From Allobosea sp. TND4EK4 (GTDB lineage: Bacteria > Pseudomonadota > Alphaproteobacteria > Rhizobiales > Beijerinckiaceae), in NCBI RefSeq assembly GCF_900156025.1, contig NZ_FTMO01000001.1, forward strand, positions 930,001 to 994,000: a stretch of DNA of 64,000 nucleotides, given 5' to 3'. Shown here in pieces: positions 1 through 6,719 of this stretch. The notes under the pieces are model-generated. The model saw only the letters and a list, made by a program, of their open reading frames with translations, ran no database searches and had not been told where the DNA came from. Every line of letters begins with the position of its first letter. Within the stretch, counting starts at the first letter, position 1. The position numbers were made by a program, and so were the translations under genes.

Positions 1-762
1 CCCCTGTTCCTGACCTCGGCGCGGGCCGTGATCGCGGCGCTCCTGGGCGGCGCCTGCCTTCTTCTGCTGCGCCAGACGATGCCGAGGCGCACCGACCTGA
101 TCCCGCTTGCGATCGTCTCGCTGGGTGTCGTGATCGGCTTCCCGCTGCTGACCGCGCTGGCGCTGCAGCACATCACGGCGGCGCGCTCGATCGTCTTCAT
201 CGGCCTGCTGCCGCTCTCGACTGCCCTGTTCGGCGTGCTGCGCGGCGGCGAGCGGCCCAAGCCCGCCTTCTGGCTGTTCTCGGTCCTGGGCAGCGCCACG
301 GTGGCCGGCTTCGCGCTCGCCCATAGCGAGGCGGGCTCGCTCGGCGGCGACCTGCTGATGATCGGCGCGGTCCTGCTCTGCGGGCTGGGCTATGCGGAGG
401 GGGCGGCACTCTCCCGGCGGCTGGGCGGCTGGCAGGTGATCTCATGGGCCCTGCTGCTGTCGCTGCCGGCGATGGCGGCGCTGGCCCTGCTGCAATGGCC
501 GAACTCGTGGAGCGGGGTCGGCACGCCGGCCTGGCTCGGGCTCGCCTATGTCTCGGTGTTCAGCATGCTGGTCGGCTTCGTGTTCTGGTATCGGGGCCTC
601 GCGCTCGGCGGCATCGCCGGAGTCGGGCAGCTCCAGTTGCTGCAGCCCTTCCTCGGGCTGCTGCTTGCCGCGCTCATCCTGCACGAGCCGGTTGCCTGGA
701 CGATGATCGCGGCGACCGGCGTCGTGGTGCTGAGCGTGGCCGGGGCGAAGCGCTTCGCCTGA
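1..762 (+). CDS. EamA/DMT-family transporter (5' end outside window)
   Basis: This is an inner-membrane exporter-like protein of the drug/metabolite transporter superfamily. The reading frame is open from base 1, and the translation before the first internal ATG (PLFLTSARA) already matches the family, so the true start lies upstream of the window. The visible 253 residues are almost wholly hydrophobic, with about eight membrane spans in the usual EamA pattern of two repeated halves. The second half carries the common VFWYRGLALGG and a proline-flanked LLQPFLGLLLA span. EamA proteins export small metabolites or amino acids, but the substrate cannot be read from sequence. The gene ends 12 bases before the convergent cupin gene. 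Confidence 0.85.
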   Translation, partial: PLFLTSARAVIAALLGGACLLLLRQTMPRRTDLIPLAIVSLGVVIGFPLLTALALQHITAARSIVFIGLLPLSTALFGVLRGGERPKPAFWLFSVLGSATVAGFALAHSEAGSLGGDLLMIGAVLLCGLGYAEGAALSRRLGGWQVISWALLLSLPAMAALALLQWPNSWSGVGTPAWLGLAYVSVFSMLVGFVFWYRGLALGGIAGVGQLQLLQPFLGLLLAALILHEPVAWTMIAATGVVVLSVAGAKRFA

Positions 763-774
763 GCCTGCCCGTCC

Positions 775-1302
775 TCAGCCCGGATGCTTGTGGATCGGAT
801 CGACCCAATAAACCGATTCCGGTTTCTCGACCGGATCGACATCGGTGATGTTGACCACCACCGCCTCGTTGTCCGAGCGCACGAGGACGCATTCCAGCAC
901 CTCGTCGGGCTTGGCGTTGATCTCCTGATGCGGGACATAGGGCGGGACATAGATGAAGTCGCCCGGCCCGGCCTCGGCGACGAATTCGAGCCGCTCGCCC
1001 CAGCGCAGCCGCGCCCGGCCGCGCACGACATAGATCACGCTCTCCAGCGCGCCGTGATGGTGCACGCCGGTCTTGGCGTCCGGCTCGATCGAGACCGTGC
1101 CGGCCCAGATCTTCTGCGCGCCGACGCGGGCATGATTGATCGCCGCCTGCCGGAACATGCCCGGCGTCTGCGCCGTATTGGGGTCGAGCTGGTCGCCCTT
1201 GATGACGCGCACGCCGTCATGTTTCCAGCGCGGCTCGCCATCGTGATGGTGATGGAGATGGCCTTCGCCATCATGCGAGTGCCCGTCATTGCCGCCACAC
1301 AT
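775..1302 (-). CDS. Cupin-domain protein with His-rich N-terminus
   Basis: A 175-residue single-domain cupin. Cupin motif 1 is seen around residues 81-87 (HHH then E87), and motif 2 around 113-126 (PGDFIYVPPYVPHQ, with H125), so the metal-binding His/Glu set is present. The first 30 residues are unusual: they contain HSHDGEGHLHHHHDG, a likely metal-binding leader. The start chosen is the ATG at 1302, directly before MCGGNDG; an upstream in-frame extension to 1446 is low-complexity and arginine-rich and is unlikely to be translated. The substrate is unknown; similar small cupins act as dioxygenases, isomerases or metal-responsive binding proteins. The gene is convergent with the exporter at 1-762. 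Confidence 0.8.
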   Translation of the reverse strand: MCGGNDGHSHDGEGHLHHHHDGEPRWKHDGVRVIKGDQLDPNTAQTPGMFRQAAINHARVGAQKIWAGTVSIEPDAKTGVHHHGALESVIYVVRGRARLRWGERLEFVAEAGPGDFIYVPPYVPHQEINAKPDEVLECVLVRSDNEAVVVNITDVDPVEKPESVYWVDPIHKHPG

Positions 1303-1448
1303 CGGTCGTCTCCCGGTTCGGCCGACATTCTCGTCCGATCGGCGCGGTTGGCAACCCTCGGCGAAGGCCGGCAGCCAAGCCTGTCGGCCCCGAAGACGTT
1401 CGCTCGCCGTGCAGCACCGCGGCAGGCGGGAGCAGCGGCGGGCCAACG

Positions 1449-1473
1449 AAAAAGCCGCCCCAATCGGAGCGGC
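1449..1473 (-). terminator. Displaced original terminator of tRNA-Thr
   Basis: Read on the minus strand, an 8-bp stem (GCCGCTCC / GGGGCGGC, one G-T pair) with the loop GATT is followed by TTTTT. It lies just downstream of the displaced tRNA-Thr 3' end at 1495-1512, where the tRNA's terminator would have been before the island integrated. Confidence 0.65.
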
Positions 1474-1494
1474 GTTGAACCCTGGCGCAGAGAA

Positions 1495-1512
1495 AATGGT
1501 GCGCTTGAGGGA
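1495..1512 (-). other. Distal attachment site of the island (displaced tRNA-Thr 3' end)
   Basis: The plus strand reads AATGGTGCGCTTGAGGGA. The 3' end of the tRNA-Thr gene at 6643-6660 reads AATGGTGCCGCTTGAGGGA, so the two differ only by one missing C. The copy is in direct orientation, lies on the 3' side of the tRNA at the far end of the island from the integrase, and is followed by a tRNA-type terminator. This is the classical layout for tRNA-targeted integration. Confidence 0.7.
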
Positions 1513-1823
1513 GCCCCGATTTCTTCATAACTGTATGCTTGTAAATGCTTTCATTGTTCATTCATCGGCCCGGCACCAACGATACTACCAACAAAACCGA
1601 TGACTGCTCCGGGTAATATGCGCATATCGGCGGTCGAAGCGGCCCTTCCCAGCGTTGGAGCAGTTGCTCTGCCGTGAACGAGCCGAATGACGATGCGCTC
1701 GGGCCTATGCCTTTCAACTCCGTCAGCTCTGCCGCTGGCTTGGAGCCGGTTCCCCGACCTTAAACGAGGCTTCACTAGTTGTCCGGTTTGATGCCTCGGC
1801 ACTAGTTCAAGGACCGCGACGCG
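1513..1823. other. Island left end, no gene recognised
   Basis: About 310 bases lie between the distal attachment site and the endonuclease gene. They are locally AT-rich near 1525-1600. Short frames are open on both strands, but none has a recognisable product. The stretch presumably holds the promoter of the endonuclease gene; an AGGA about nine bases before its ATG is a plausible ribosome binding site. Confidence 0.5.
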
Positions 1824-2540
1824 ATGGCCACCGAGCACCTGATCCCCGCCGACCTCTGGGACAAGTACGAAATCAAGGAATGGCGGAATGCGACCGGCGT
1901 CCTGACGACCGCTTGCCCCAGGGAATGGGAGGATGTTGTTGACGTGTTGCGAGGCTTCAAGCTCCTCGCGTCGGAGATCCGGGTCGGCGGTGGCAACCGC
2001 TCCCTGATCAGTCAGCGCATCGACAAACCTCTGTATGCCAAGGGCTGGGTCGAGAAGAAATTCGAGACCGCGATCGAGGTGGACAAGGCGAGGATCGAAA
2101 GCCCGACGCACGCGGTCGACTGCTTCAAAGGCGGAGTGGCTGTCGAGATGGAGTGGAACAATAAGGACCCATTCTTCGATAGGGACCTCAACAATTTCCG
2201 CCTTCTGTTCGATCTCAGAGCGATCCAGGTCGGCATCCTGATAACGCGTTCCTGGGACCTGCAGGCTGTCTTCAAAAGGATTGGAAAGGGCTCCTCCTAT
2301 GGAAAGCCCACAACACACCATGGCAAACTTTGGCCGAAGGTAGAGGGCGGTGGCGGTGGCGGTTGTCCGGTGCTGACGTTTGCCATCAAACCATCGCTGT
2401 TCGTCGATGACGGCGAACAGGCATACCTCGATCTCAAGAAGCAGCAGGATGATGCCAAGGCAGCAAAGGCCGCTTCGGAGAAAGCCCGTAAAAAGGCAGG
2501 CCTGCCTGTCGAAGAAGATGACGAGGACGAAGAAGCCTAA
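1824..2540 (+). CDS. BglII/BstYI-family type II restriction endonuclease
   Basis: A 238-residue protein whose centre matches the BglII/BstYI endonuclease family: D99, then eight residues, then E108-M-E110, followed by WNNKDPFFDRDLNNFRLLF and a GILITRSWDL strand. In BglII the matching active-site pattern is D-x8-E-x-Q; here the third position is Glu. Enzymes of this family are dimeric and cut palindromic GATC-centred sites; the exact target here is not readable from sequence. The C-terminus (from about residue 203) is a highly charged Lys/Ala then Asp/Glu tail. The gene runs tail-to-tail into the methyltransferase gene, with their stop codons overlapping by four bases, as expected for a restriction-modification pair. 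Confidence 0.82.
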   Translation: MATEHLIPADLWDKYEIKEWRNATGVLTTACPREWEDVVDVLRGFKLLASEIRVGGGNRSLISQRIDKPLYAKGWVEKKFETAIEVDKARIESPTHAVDCFKGGVAVEMEWNNKDPFFDRDLNNFRLLFDLRAIQVGILITRSWDLQAVFKRIGKGSSYGKPTTHHGKLWPKVEGGGGGGCPVLTFAIKPSLFVDDGEQAYLDLKKQQDDAKAAKAASEKARKKAGLPVEEDDEDEEA

Positions 2541-3223
2541 TCGGCGACGCGAACCTGAGAGTGGTTGGCGTACGTCTTCCACGTCGGCTCATAGGTCTCG
2601 TCGGCCTGATTGCCCCAGACCGTCCAGCCCTTGCGGACGCCGCGGCCGAACATCTCAAGGTAGGGACCGGGCGAGCATGACTCAATGAGCTTGTATTGCT
2701 CGTCGGGCTTGCGTGAGTGCTCCCGCTTCATAGTCTGAATCATATTGACCTGCGTGCGGCCAGGCCGGAGCGTACGGGCGTTTTTTCCCCTCACCCCGAA
2801 CAGCAGAAGCTCGGTCACGTTGCGGAAATAGAAGCCGACGCCGCGGCCATCGGAACCGCCATCCTTACGGATCTTGTGCCAGACGACGTTCGCTTTGTAT
2901 TGGAATCCCCACGCCTTCATGACGTCAAGACCGTCGGGGAGAAGCGCGTTTGGAACCCAAAGATAGAGATGGGCCGTGACCTCGGCGACGTCGGCGACAG
3001 GGAGCTTCTTGATGTCGTCGAGCGTCATCGTCCCGTAGCGGTTGAGACGCTTATGCTCGGGGGCGACCTTGCCGGTGGAATTCTGGAACCGCCATGGCGG
3101 GTCTGCCATGATCGTGCTGAAAAACTCGCCGTTTGTCATTGCGAGAAGGTCCGCCGATGGGTCGCTCTGGTGAATTTTGTCCAGCACAATTCCGCTCCAC
3201 ATCAAGTGATTCGTGTCTAGCAT
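2537..3223 (-). CDS. MT-A70 family DNA adenine methyltransferase
   Basis: A 228-residue protein of the MT-A70 class of N6-adenine methyltransferases. The catalytic DPPW lies at residues 41-44 within FSTIMADPPWRFQ, followed by YLWVPNALLPDG, WHKIRKDGG and a C-terminal LEMFGRGVRKGWTVWGNQ, all typical of the class. It uses S-adenosylmethionine to methylate adenine in a short DNA target; paired with the convergent BglII-like enzyme it is the likely protecting methylase. The start at 3223 gives about 40 residues before DPPW. A later ATG (M29, at 3139) would still leave the whole domain. The expected target is a GATC-containing site, but this is inferred only from the endonuclease family. Confidence 0.85.
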   Translation of the reverse strand: MLDTNHLMWSGIVLDKIHQSDPSADLLAMTNGEFFSTIMADPPWRFQNSTGKVAPEHKRLNRYGTMTLDDIKKLPVADVAEVTAHLYLWVPNALLPDGLDVMKAWGFQYKANVVWHKIRKDGGSDGRGVGFYFRNVTELLLFGVRGKNARTLRPGRTQVNMIQTMKREHSRKPDEQYKLIESCSPGPYLEMFGRGVRKGWTVWGNQADETYEPTWKTYANHSQVRVAD

Positions 3224-3394
3224 CGGAGGTGGGGGCTGTCCCTGGCTTTCCCATCACAACAAAAAACATTCCGCTGCGACCGGCTGAAGCGGGCGAAAGT
3301 CAGGGCCCCGTAATGGCCTTCGTTCGCAAGCTTTAGGCAGCGACGTTGTTAAGAAATCCGTTCCCCGGTACCCCTGCCATCAAGTGGTGTGCCA

Positions 3395-3970
3395 TCATCG
3401 GGACAGCCTTCCAAGCCGGCCGATCAGCACCGCAAGATGCGCGTTCATCCGGTCCTCGGCTTGGTTCAATTGGGCTTTCCAATGATCGTAGGTCTTCCAG
3501 CGCATCCATTTCGGCTTCGGAACCCAACATGGATCGTCGCCTTTCAGCTTCTTGAACAGGATGCGGTTTCGGCGATCCAAAGTGCGATTCATTGCGCTGG
3601 AAGCGCGCTGCGAGCGATAGGCCACACGGCGATAACGGTCGCGAGCATGAAATCCTGCGCCGCCAAGGGAATAGAGCTTTGCCGCGCGCGAGCCGGTTGC
3701 AGGGCAGATTGCAAACCAGCGCTCGCCGCCGAAGCGGCAGGGTTCGGCCTCCAGCCGGAAGCTCTGATCGAAGGGCACGCCGTTGCATCGATATGTAAGT
3801 GCGAGACTCCCAGATGACTCTCCTTCCAGTGTGACGGTGGCGCGAATCCATCCCACGGGCTCGCCATCGCGGCTCCAGCTCCAGCGGAAGGGGCCGCGAT
3901 AGCCCTTCCCCGCGAGCACAACGCGATGCACGTCCAGTCTCAGTCCATCGTCGACAACTGGCCATGCCAT
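3395..3970 (-). CDS. Island protein of unknown function with degenerate zinc-ribbon layout
   Basis: A 191-residue protein that resembles a conserved family of unknown function often seen on alphaproteobacterial islands and prophages. Visible elements are a tryptophan-rich first third (FRWSWSRDGEPVGWIRA), a beta-rich middle, then RWFAICPATGSRAAKLY, GAGFHARDRYRRVAYRSQR and a charged helical C-terminus. In related proteins, as I recall them, the middle holds two Cys-x2-Cys pairs of a zinc ribbon. Here only one Cys of those positions remains, so metal binding is doubtful. No function can be assigned. The gene follows the winged-helix gene in the same direction, 149 bases downstream. Confidence 0.55.
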   Translation of the reverse strand: MAWPVVDDGLRLDVHRVVLAGKGYRGPFRWSWSRDGEPVGWIRATVTLEGESSGSLALTYRCNGVPFDQSFRLEAEPCRFGGERWFAICPATGSRAAKLYSLGGAGFHARDRYRRVAYRSQRASSAMNRTLDRRNRILFKKLKGDDPCWVPKPKWMRWKTYDHWKAQLNQAEDRMNAHLAVLIGRLGRLSR

Positions 3971-4119
3971 CTCAGCTTACCGAAATTTCTTGGCTAACCC
4001 ACATTTCAATCAATCGACCGTCACGCGCAGGTTCGCGGGCTTCCTTAGGCAGGACGTAGCTATAGGTGTGTCGAGCTTGCCGAGCTGCCGGGCGGCGCGG
4101 CCGACAATTTCACGTGTCG

Positions 4120-4599
4120 TCAGTGGCTTGCCGGCTTCACGGCGTAACGCGGCGTATCGTGCTGCGGCGGTTGAAGCGAGCCGTTGACGGCTCTGAATTG
4201 AGCCGTTGACGGCTTCGACTTCAGCCCTTGGATCGGATGCGGCTGCCAACGCAGAAAGTCCTTTCCTGCTGGCATGCCCGGTTCCTCTGGAAATGCCGTC
4301 AGCGCATAGACCGAAGCCCGCCTCGCTTTTGGGCCTCGGATGCGCCCGACCCGGACGACGCGCAGCCATCCGCGATCGACTAAGTCGGCTAGCGCCTTGC
4401 TCGCGGTGTTCCGGGCGCAGGCCACCAGCATCGTTGCCGAGCGGTCGCTGATCTCGAAAGCGTTCGGCTCCAACGGTCGATACCGCGTCAATAAGTTGAC
4501 CAGCAGTGCCTGCGCCACGGGCGTCAGCGTCGTCCAGGCGGGAATGCTCATCCAGGCGAAATAGATGCGCGCATGCGGTCTGTCCGTCGGCCGGGGCAT
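4120..4599 (-). CDS. Winged-helix DNA-binding island protein (possible 3' frameshift)
   Basis: A 159-residue protein. Residues 15 to about 105 look like a winged helix: IPAWTTLTPVAQALLVNLL, then a Thr/Ala recognition-helix-like segment and a DRGWLRVVRVGRI wing. Such proteins sit beside integrases on many rhizobial islands and are probably regulators. The C-terminal 35 residues look unstructured. In the other minus frame, downstream of a repeated 15-base palindrome (4178-4214), the translation includes KPLTTREIVGRAARQLGK, which looks more like real protein and continues to 4010. A frameshift near 4200 is therefore possible, and the intact gene may have ended at 4010. The gene lies 20 bases after the excisionase-like gene and is probably co-transcribed with it. 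Confidence 0.6.
   Translation of the reverse strand: MPRPTDRPHARIYFAWMSIPAWTTLTPVAQALLVNLLTRYRPLEPNAFEISDRSATMLVACARNTASKALADLVDRGWLRVVRVGRIRGPKARRASVYALTAFPEEPGMPAGKDFLRWQPHPIQGLKSKPSTAQFRAVNGSLQPPQHDTPRYAVKPASH
4178..4214. repeat. Two identical palindromes 22 bp apart
   Basis: GAGCCGTTGACGGCT occurs exactly at 4178-4192 and 4200-4214. Each holds the inverted repeat AGCCGT-TG-ACGGCT. The 22-bp period is about two helical turns and is not a multiple of three, although the repeat lies in the coding region of the winged-helix gene. It could be an operator pair or a short duplication that shifted the frame. Confidence 0.55.
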
Positions 4600-4619
4600 G
4601 ATACTGCCGCGCGCTCACG

Positions 4620-4820
4620 TCACGCCGCCCGCTTGTCATCGGCGGTCTGCGAAAGCGCATCGATATAGCGCTGGATTTCACTTGCGCGGACAAAACTGCG
4701 CCGGCCATTGCGGACAATCGCCAAGCGGCCTGCGGAGACTTCCTGATAGCCGCGCGTCAACCGTAAGCCGGCGAGCGTGAATGCGTCACGAATGGGATAG
4801 AGGCGGTCAATGGTGTTCAT
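4620..4820 (-). CDS. AlpA-like excisionase / helix-turn-helix protein
   Basis: A 66-residue basic protein with the length and pattern of AlpA/MerR-type excisionases. A short helix (LYPIRDAFTLAGL) is followed by an RNGRRSFVRASEIQRYIDAL segment, the usual wing and helix ending such proteins. On integrated islands these proteins direct integrase excision or repress its promoter. It is encoded on the same strand as the integrase and lies downstream of it, separated by one small unknown gene. The start at 4820 is the only ATG that keeps the whole domain. Confidence 0.7.
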   Translation of the reverse strand: MNTIDRLYPIRDAFTLAGLRLTRGYQEVSAGRLAIVRNGRRSFVRASEIQRYIDALSQTADDKRAA

Positions 4821-4927
4821 GAGATTTCGGACCCTTATGAATTCGCCTGATTTCGTCAGCGACCGGAATCTCGCATCTCATAGGGCGGCGCGTAACCGCC
4901 GCCACCGACTTGTCCGCAACTGGTGCC

Positions 4928-5227
4928 TCAAATGTTTGTTTTTGTTGACAGAAACCGCCTAAAACTTGTCGGCGAAGGAACCAGCCTGCGATTCTCCCTC
5001 AGCCACACCGACATATGATAGATCGCGGCCCTTCTGTCGCTCAAAAGGAAACTGGGATCGCAGCTCAGTGCTGTATACGCTTCTTCCAAGTCTTTCGTGG
5101 CCCGACCCGGCTTTACCCAGCGGTTTCCGTATTCAAATTGAGACTTTATAAGCTCAACGTCGGCCATGTTTTTTTTGATATTGTCTCTCAGCCAGCCTTG
5201 GTCCCGAAAGACCCTCCGCTGCTTCAT
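4928..5227 (-). CDS. Small hypothetical protein downstream of integrase
   Basis: A 99-residue basic protein that I do not recognise. It starts four bases after the integrase stop, in the same direction, which suggests co-transcription and coupled translation. Its sequence (for example NNIKK-like basic stretches, WVKPGRATKDLEEAY, SVWLRENRRLVPS) shows no membrane span or signal peptide and has several Trp residues. Codon use is less GC-rich than in the core genes, as expected for island cargo. It could be a small accessory of integration or a defence-related cargo gene; nothing in the sequence decides between these. Confidence 0.45.
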   Translation of the reverse strand: MKQRRVFRDQGWLRDNIKKNMADVELIKSQFEYGNRWVKPGRATKDLEEAYTALSCDPSFLLSDRRAAIYHMSVWLRENRRLVPSPTSFRRFLSTKTNI

Positions 5228-5231
5228 CTTT

Positions 5232-6470
5232 CTAGCTGGCTTTCATGGCGACGATTTTGGCTCCATCCCGCCAGGCGTCCAATTGATCCGCCCACCAAGC
5301 GGCCATAGTCACGCGCTCTCGCCAATGCTCGCCGCGCGCATACGCCCGACGAACCGCATCGGGGTCTTGGTGCGCCAGCGCCCGCTCTATCGCGTCCGAG
5401 CTGAAACGGCCGCTTTCGTTCAGCAACGTCGAGGCAGCAGCGCGGAAGCCGTGCGAAGACATATCATCCTGCCCGTAACCCATGCGGCGCAGCGCACCAT
5501 TCAGGGTGTTTTCCGATATTGGACGTTGCTCCACCGTTCGTCCTTCACCACCGCTGGTGCCATATCCCGGAAACACCAGCTTGCCGCCTCCGGTGATCTC
5601 TCGCAATTCGGACAGGATCGCCAACGCCTGCGGTGGCAATGGCACGCGATGCTCTTTCCGCATTTTCATTCGCGCGGAAGGGATCGTCCAAAGGGCATTC
5701 TCCAGATCGATTTCCCGCCATTCGGCAAATCGAAGTTCGCCAGGGCGCGGGAACAGATAGGCCATCAATTTCAGAGCGGCGACGGTTGAAGGTTGCCCCT
5801 GAAAGCTGGCAATGGCTCGCATCAAGCCACCAAGCTGAACCGGATCGGTGATTGCGGCGCGATGCTTCACCACCGGGGCAGATATGGCGCCTCGCAACGC
5901 GGAAGTTGGATCGCCACTGGCACGCGCGGTGGCGACGCCATAGCGAAACACTTCGCCGATAACAGCGCGCAGGCGTTTGGCGGTTTCCAGCCTGCCCTTG
6001 CGCTCGACCTTCTTCAAAACGTCGAGAATCTCCGGCGCGCTGATTTCGGTGATCGGTCGATGGCCAATGCTCTCGTTGGCGAGGCCATGCAGCCATTCGA
6101 GCTTGGCGAGAGTGTTGACGGCTTTTTGCTCGCGCCGCTTTTTCTCCAGCACTTCGTTGGCGACCAGGGCGAAGGTTGTCGCGCTGCTTGTTGTCGCCGC
6201 CCGCTTGTCCAAGCGCTTCTGTTCAGATGGATCACGATCGGCCGCGAGCAAGGCGCGAGCGGCCTTCCGGCGGTCGCGAGCGTCAGCGAGGCTCAATTCT
6301 GGATAAGAGCCCAGCGCCATGAGCTTCTGCTTGCCACCAAAGCGATAGGCGAAGCGCCACAGCTTGGAACCAGTCGGCATGATCCAGAGCTGAAGCCCTT
6401 CGCCGTCCGAACGTTTGACGATTCCAGCGCCCGGCTTCGCGTTCATGATCGTCGCGTTGGTCAGGGGCAT
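5232..6470 (-). CDS. P4-type tyrosine site-specific integrase
   Basis: A 412-residue tyrosine recombinase. The N-terminus has the DUF4102-type arm-binding domain of P4-like integrases (KRSDGEGLQLWIMPTGSKLW, then LGSYPELSLADARD). The central SAM-like domain follows, and the catalytic domain shows the Arg of FPRPGELRFAEW, HGFRAAA (H-x-x-R), the Lys-bearing hairpin RKEHRVPL, the His of ALAHQD and the Tyr of AVRRAYARGEHW. It would catalyse recombination between the tRNA-Thr 3' end and the island's attachment site. The ATG at 6470 begins MPLTNATI, matching the family's usual N-terminus; the longer open frame to 6920 runs through the tRNA gene and is not coding. The gene lies 173 bases from the tRNA. 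Confidence 0.92.
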   Translation of the reverse strand: MPLTNATIMNAKPGAGIVKRSDGEGLQLWIMPTGSKLWRFAYRFGGKQKLMALGSYPELSLADARDRRKAARALLAADRDPSEQKRLDKRAATTSSATTFALVANEVLEKKRREQKAVNTLAKLEWLHGLANESIGHRPITEISAPEILDVLKKVERKGRLETAKRLRAVIGEVFRYGVATARASGDPTSALRGAISAPVVKHRAAITDPVQLGGLMRAIASFQGQPSTVAALKLMAYLFPRPGELRFAEWREIDLENALWTIPSARMKMRKEHRVPLPPQALAILSELREITGGGKLVFPGYGTSGGEGRTVEQRPISENTLNGALRRMGYGQDDMSSHGFRAAASTLLNESGRFSSDAIERALAHQDPDAVRRAYARGEHWRERVTMAAWWADQLDAWRDGAKIVAMKAS

Positions 6471-6594
6471 GTTGGTATCCCGCTTCCAAGGCCGCGATGC
6501 ATACCAACATTGATACCAACGCACTCGCTGGTTGTTGGCGAACGCGGCCGGACGCCAACGAAAGGATTCTCGCCGAAAACACCCAAAAAGCAAT

Positions 6595-6619
6595 AAAAAA
6601 CCGCCCGTTTCCGAGCGGC
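6595..6619 (-). terminator. Terminator of tRNA-Thr, supplied by the island
   Basis: On the minus strand, CCGCTCG-GAAA-CGGGCGG forms a stem with a GNRA-type tetraloop followed by TTTTTT. It lies about 25 bases after the CCA end of the tRNA, inside the island's right end, and would now end transcription of the rebuilt tRNA. Confidence 0.75.
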
Positions 6620-6641
6620 TGCGAACGTCTACGAAAAGAGG

Positions 6642-6660
6642 AATGGTGCCGCTTGAGGGA
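6642..6660 (-). other. Proximal attachment site within tRNA-Thr 3' end
   Basis: This is the block shared with 1495-1512 apart from one base. It covers the CCA end, the acceptor 3' strand and the start of the T-arm, which is the usual crossover target of P4-type integrases. Confidence 0.65.
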
Positions 6661-6719
6661 TTCGAACCCCCGACCCCCTCATTACGAATGAGGTGCTCTA
6701 CCAGCTGAGCTAAAGCGGC
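6644..6719 (-). tRNA. tRNA-Thr (anticodon CGT)
   Basis: On the minus strand the 76-base gene has a perfect 7-bp acceptor stem (GCCGCTT / AAGCGGC), the D-arm AGCTCAGCTGGTAGAGC, the anticodon stem CCTCA / TGAGG with loop TTCGTAA (anticodon CGT, threonine codon ACG), a T-arm with GGTTCGAATC and an encoded CCA. Its 3' end is the integration site of the adjoining island. Confidence 0.96.

Follow-up and report, generated by a model that had tools for sequence, protein, structure and literature searches.

A compact tRNA-Thr island with a type II restriction-modification system and a predicted RGATCY target in Allobosea sp. TND4EK4

Genomic islands at transfer RNA (tRNA) genes were surveyed by Islander with a lower island length limit of 2 kilobases (kb) (PMC4383910). 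Oliveira et al. 2014 found restriction-modification (R-M) systems to be rare in plasmids and prophages and cited their movement on integrating elements. In the Nitratiruptor phage NrS-3, the endonuclease R.Nph3I cuts RGATCY and is blocked by N6-methyladenine (6mA), while M.Nph3I methylates RGATCY to RG6mATCY with a preference for GGATCC, as described in PMC10734518. Here we describe a homologous pair in a 64,000-nucleotide stretch of Allobosea sp. TND4EK4 (contig NZ_FTMO01000001.1, positions 930,001 to 994,000; hereafter the window). The window contains a well-bounded tRNA-Thr island that spans positions 1497-6643 (about 5.15 kb) and encodes a full type II R-M system; tRNA-Thr(CGT) borders it on one side and a displaced copy of the tRNA's 3' end on the other. 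Very probably, this is an integrative island whose integrase recombined at tRNA-Thr(CGT) and which carries the R-M system as cargo, with RGATCY as the predicted target. It cleanly exemplifies a known kind of element and does not represent a new one: compared with the tRNA-gene islands of the Islander paper (PMC4383910), it shows nothing different in kind, its fragment being short and the island small. An earlier note on this DNA had drawn attention to a minimal integrase-plus-R-M unit of about 5.1 kb; its architecture and size are borne out, and such compact units are of a known kind. No publication on this element was found under R-M systems on mobile elements, BglII/MT-A70 pairs or attachment damage, a weak negative given that most subscription literature was not covered. 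The principal features, in window positions, are:

1454..1473, minus strand, terminator-like hairpin beyond the far end, perhaps the former terminator of the tRNA
1495..1512, far end of the island, displaced tRNA 3' end without one C
1824..2540, plus strand, BglII/BstYI-type restriction endonuclease (R; PF09195, E 3e-40)
2537..3223, minus strand, MT-A70-type adenine DNA methyltransferase with a DPPW motif (M; PF05063, E 8e-30)
4620..4820, minus strand, excisionase-like HTH_17 protein of 66 amino acids
5232..6470, minus strand, tyrosine integrase of 412 amino acids (PF13356, PF22022 and PF00589; Arm-DNA-bind_3, Phage_int_M and Phage_integrase)
6599..6620, minus strand, terminator-like hairpin just downstream of the tRNA and inside the island, its role presumed
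6642..6660, tRNA-side end of the island, intact tRNA 3' end
6644..6719, minus strand, tRNA-Thr(CGT), the integration target (ARAGORN)

The sole difference between the two ends is one C absent from the far copy, which by hand count is acceptor-stem position 70 or 71, and the displaced fragment is in direct orientation relative to the tRNA. The guanine-plus-cytosine (G+C) content of the island, 59.2% against 67.8% in the rest of the window, is the lowest of all 5.1-kb stretches sampled each 250 bases, and G+C drops from 69% to 55% at the far copy. Terminator-like sites show no excess (5 versus a mean of 5.9 in shuffles). None of 200 base shuffles of positions 1-6600 matched an 18-base tRNA-end probe within one edit, a control that is uninformative because the genuine copy itself needs two edits. 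As a repeat with a gap is also weak alone, the far end is established through sister elements at the same tRNA.

The genus sample comprised 67 genomes, including that of the window (G000). Relatives of the integrase at E 1e-60 or better were detected in 18 of them, and seven genomes (G000, G002, G005, G014, G043, G045 and G058) encode one with an open frame beside this tRNA-Thr; in addition, G004 has a split relative adjoining a longer tRNA copy and G047 a short integrase-like DNA match near its tRNA. The pattern TGGTGCGCNNGAGGG gave 25 matches in 23 of the 67 genomes, and the reversed control pattern gave 8. Five matches are at the far end of an element, on the correct side and in the correct orientation (G000, G002, G005, G014 and G058), and the corresponding fragment-to-tRNA lengths are about 5.1, 35.8, 2.85, 19.3 and 10.5 kb. 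The near-identical, one-base-short copy that the earlier note had reported at 1495-1512 is therefore a real end, present likewise in four sisters, and the integrases of these five elements with the identical deletion are as little as 54% identical. A sixth match, in G054, is 1.1 kb from the tRNA; one of its two variable letters is unlike the host tRNA, and no integrase of this group was found within 4.4 kb. Two further matches (G046 and G053) resemble far ends by eye and are on contigs other than that of the tRNA, and the other 17 are not tied to this tRNA site.

The cargo differs between the sister elements, indicating that the site takes exchangeable cargo. The G058 element (L067:3298-13817) encodes a type III methylase and a restriction gene side by side, and the G014 element (L146 with L189) encodes pieces of a type III methylase in separate frames, a Shedu gene and a UvrD-like helicase. 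The 35.8 kb of G002 appear prophage-like by eye from their large reading frames, and G005 has only small open reading frames (ORFs) beside its integrase. Defence genes were thus found in two of the four sister elements, by a scan that covered G058 and G014. In the alignment, the G043 integrase (G043:C265:11506-12708, L148) lacks the catalytic tyrosine as well as further conserved residues, although its frame is open.

Longer copies (45-52 bases) of the 3' half of this tRNA were also observed (G004:C11:680438-680482, G025:C15:187558-187609 and G059:C78:3641-3685), and next to them is a different integrase, 26-27% identical to that of the window. This tRNA thus seems to be the target of a second class of elements as well, and in G004 both classes appear to lie in tandem. 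Related integrases also occur at tRNA-Ala, tRNA-Leu (three), tRNA-Glu and tRNA-Phe; no distal copies were found for these in the stretches examined, so the one-base deletion could not be shown there. One match, in L156 and 28 bases downstream of the tRNA call, was taken as a tRNA-boundary effect.

The integrase that the earlier note had placed next to the tRNA is confirmed by its three Pfam domains, and it has the motifs PRPGELR, HGFR, LAHQD and RAYAR, which we take to be its catalytic motifs. Its best NCBIfam match is NF007246/PRK09692, presumably a P4-like model, at 237.7 bits and below the cut-off of 434. The excisionase-like gene of the earlier note was recovered at 4620-4820; this ORF had no Pfam match at E 0.1, and at an E limit of 1 HTH_17 was matched by all nine aligned members, the protein of the window itself reaching only E 0.12. 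Relatives of this protein are present in several stretches that hold related integrases. No transfer or capsid family was detected among the island proteins in family searches of the window proteins, suggesting that the island would need help to move between cells.

In Traffic at the tmRNA gene (Williams 2003), a P4-type integrase is reported to damage its attachment site routinely. Such damage by P4-type integrases is cited in the Islander paper, which already describes displaced tRNA fragments with a small deletion at this place (PMC4383910). The base lost here, at position 70 or 71, fits that deletion, and its loss in five elements argues that it is not random decay. Points in common with the P4-type integrases that damage attachment sites are a repeated deletion in the fragment and a terminator beside the site, and PRK09692 is the best NCBIfam match of the window integrase, although below its cut-off; the target here is tRNA-Thr(CGT) and not ssrA. 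In all five elements the two host-variable letters of the fragment (TT or AA) agree with those in the tRNA of the same host; G014 and G058 differ in these letters, yet their integrases are 86% identical. This agreement suits a fragment derived from the host tRNA, but it would be equally expected if the site of the element must match the host, and it therefore cannot tell loss of the base at integration from a deletion that was carried in. It is conceivable, though unlikely, that this group of integrases uses one tRNA-Thr site as a slot for exchangeable cargo, often defence genes, and that the removal of exactly one base is programmed in integration rather than a product of decay.

At the far end of the island, the convergent endonuclease/methyltransferase pair announced in the earlier note was identified by PF09195 and PF05063, the two genes overlapping by four bases. 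Residues D99 and E110 are invariant and E108 is nearly so in 43 aligned R sequences, and presumably these correspond to the active-site residues of BglII. The model of R has a predicted local distance difference test score (pLDDT) of 92, and its best fold match in PDB is BstYI (E 1.3e-7), followed by OkrAI and BamHI; PDB searches with R by sequence and by profile returned no endonuclease, only the fold search giving a match. By profile, fold and acidic residues, R is a type II endonuclease of the BglII/BstYI family.

The window proteins are 56% (R) and 71% (M) identical to R.Nph3I and M.Nph3I. Because these homologues were tested, RGATCY is the predicted target, which R would cut and M would methylate to 6mA. 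According to the two sources, the NrS-3 genes are, like those of the window, neighbours on an integrating element (PMC10734518, PMC9723563); they are codirectional on a 40-kb temperate phage, whereas the window pair is convergent on a 5-kb island. The Mesorhizobium phage Lo5R7ANS encodes a pair with similar identities (58% for R and 71% for M) that adjoins a gene annotated as integrase and a tRNA-Leu. It is likewise codirectional, and its 45.7-kb phage genome has a T7-like RNA polymerase gene. Within the element RGATCY occurs twice, once in R and once in M.

Relatives of R were detected in 20 of 397 genomes of the order, that of the window included, and in 13 plasmid records and 5 phage records. 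In the genus, PF09195 was identified in only three of the 67 genomes, the window's own among them and the other two on contigs without the tRNA; the same 5.1 kb is therefore not present in all relatives. We inspected 64 other R places, two of which are repeats, and found the R reading frame in 61. A homologue of M is on the ORF list at 57 of these 61 loci and absent from it at 4, and its orientation relative to R is convergent in 38, codirectional in 17 and divergent in 2. Related R-M pairs also occur on phages with annotated integrases (NrS-3 and Lo5R7ANS). In a metagenome-assembled genome of the Beijerinckiaceae (L105:5899-7604), an R-M pair is directly beside a tRNA-Val, perhaps another tRNA-linked insertion.

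Comparison with relatives also covered the flanks of the island. These, and the remaining ORFs within it, are:

28..762, plus strand, transporter in the left flank, which we take to be EamA-like
775..1305, minus strand, cupin gene in the left flank, host DNA
3395..3970, minus strand, ORF of 191 amino acids
4120..4599, minus strand, ORF of 159 amino acids with a weak match to phrog_270, a phage replication-initiation family (E 0.0018)
4928..5227, minus strand, ORF of 99 amino acids, neither relative nor family found

All 18 relatives examined at this interval have the transporter across it from the tRNA. Between transporter and tRNA (763-1496 in the window), the cupin gene is found here, a gene we take to be DksA-like in 9 of the 18 relatives and other sequence in the rest; the place is thus variable even apart from this integrase. 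Of the 66 other genomes in the genus, 45 have a cupin gene 86-90% identical to this one, either on a contig other than that of the tRNA or far away from it, and the gene is accordingly host DNA. Three genomes (G007, G030 and G036) have the transporter, the DksA-like gene and the tRNA without an integrase of this group, and G018 has another gene in that place, also without such an integrase. G018 and G005 form an empty/filled pair: their sequences are 79% alike up to a point 93 bases ahead of the G005 fragment, similarity resumes at 86% from 7 bases ahead of the tRNA, and G005 has about 2.85 kb from fragment to tRNA. The empty-site comparison suggested by the earlier note thus yielded sites without integrase and a sister pair; the arrangement it had envisaged, a tRNA followed directly by the terminator at 1449-1473, was not seen in any relative. 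Nor was a closest relative observed with the same island-side sequence and without the genes. About 20 to 114 bases beside the tRNA, the terminator region included, are common to several relatives in which no integrase of this group was found next to it (G028, G001, G027, G056, G061, G038, G035 and G019). A sequence of about 100 bases at 8897-8996 matches its reverse complement at 84% and is perhaps a repetitive palindromic element; several relatives have it too, downstream of the corresponding tRNA region. The 191-amino-acid protein matched no Pfam, NCBIfam or PADLOC family and only weakly phrog_26965 (E 0.008), and among 296 other genomes from the order, 8 have a relative of it.

Several results weigh against an integrative island that targets RGATCY. 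The far-end fragment has only 15-18 bases, no relative with the cupin left flank of the window next to the tRNA was found, nor was the island's own empty site, and for the related integrases at this tRNA in G043 and G045 no short copy was found, either in the stretches around them or in the genome scan. A profile of the window integrase and 16 relatives, applied without a positive control, detected no integrase of this group in the loci of the R-M relatives (L081-L145, of which L081-L102 are just 2-4 kb long), which leaves the island as the single observed case of this cargo together with this integrase. The ORFs of 159, 191 and 99 amino acids remain without explanation. RGATCY shows no clear avoidance in the window, being at most mildly rare against the Markov expectation (AGATCT 9 versus 18.7, GGATCC 12 versus 17.1, AGATCC 17 versus 15.7 and GGATCT 13 versus 20.4), because other NGATCN words are low too (CGATCG 70 versus 102.3 and TGATCA 14 versus 29.4). 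A once-mobile island that is now fixed, its damaged far-end fragment no longer recombining and its R-M system kept as resident defence, would agree with the deletion in all five elements whose far end was found, with the G043 integrase lacking its catalytic tyrosine and with G005 and G054, which by eye resemble decayed remnants. However, the integrase of the window retains its motifs and the frames of R, M and the excisionase-like protein are open, and elements with the same deletion occur in diverged hosts with differing flanks, which argues that integration has gone on repeatedly; we consider such a relic a tentative and rather less probable account.

The far end might also be elsewhere, for example beyond the cupin gene, with 1495-1512 a chance match. 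The repeat is short, relatives have the cupin gene elsewhere, and the 13 fixed letters of the pattern do recur by chance in the genus, as the 17 off-site and 8 reversed-control matches illustrate. This is nevertheless very improbable: the one-base-short copy is also at the far ends of four sister elements, by which we rejected a chance repeat, the G+C step coincides with the copy, and the cupin gene, widespread in relatives away from the tRNA, lends no support to a larger element including it. A later, separate entry of the R-M pair by another route into an older island, empty or otherwise loaded, comes closest to an even chance, while falling short of it. Neither R nor M was found in 16 stretches around related integrases, and phages carry the pair while plasmids carry relatives of R; against this, no repeat or boundary setting the pair apart was noticed among the listed repeats, although no dedicated search was made.

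For the integrative island, the following course can be proposed. The integrase would recombine the attachment site of the element with the 3' end of tRNA-Thr(CGT), and integration would keep the tRNA intact, now followed by a terminator-like hairpin from the island, and place the displaced fragment, one C short, at the far end. The HTH_17 protein may help excision. Methylation of the adenine in RGATCY is the predicted activity of the MT-A70 enzyme; its BglII/BstYI-type partner, judging from the tested homologue, would cut unmethylated RGATCY in incoming DNA. If the island were lost, R would cut the host's own RGATCY sites and the island would thereby be stabilised, as the homologue and general knowledge of R-M systems suggest.

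The island is a compact and complete instance of an R-M system carried along with an integrase at a tRNA gene; its predicted target, RGATCY, is concrete, and sister elements at the same site carry other cargo, including defence genes. If the one-base removal is programmed, it might serve, for example, to keep the island in place or to deny the fragment to incoming elements. The deletion shared by five elements makes the older idea of integrase damage testable on a tRNA gene.

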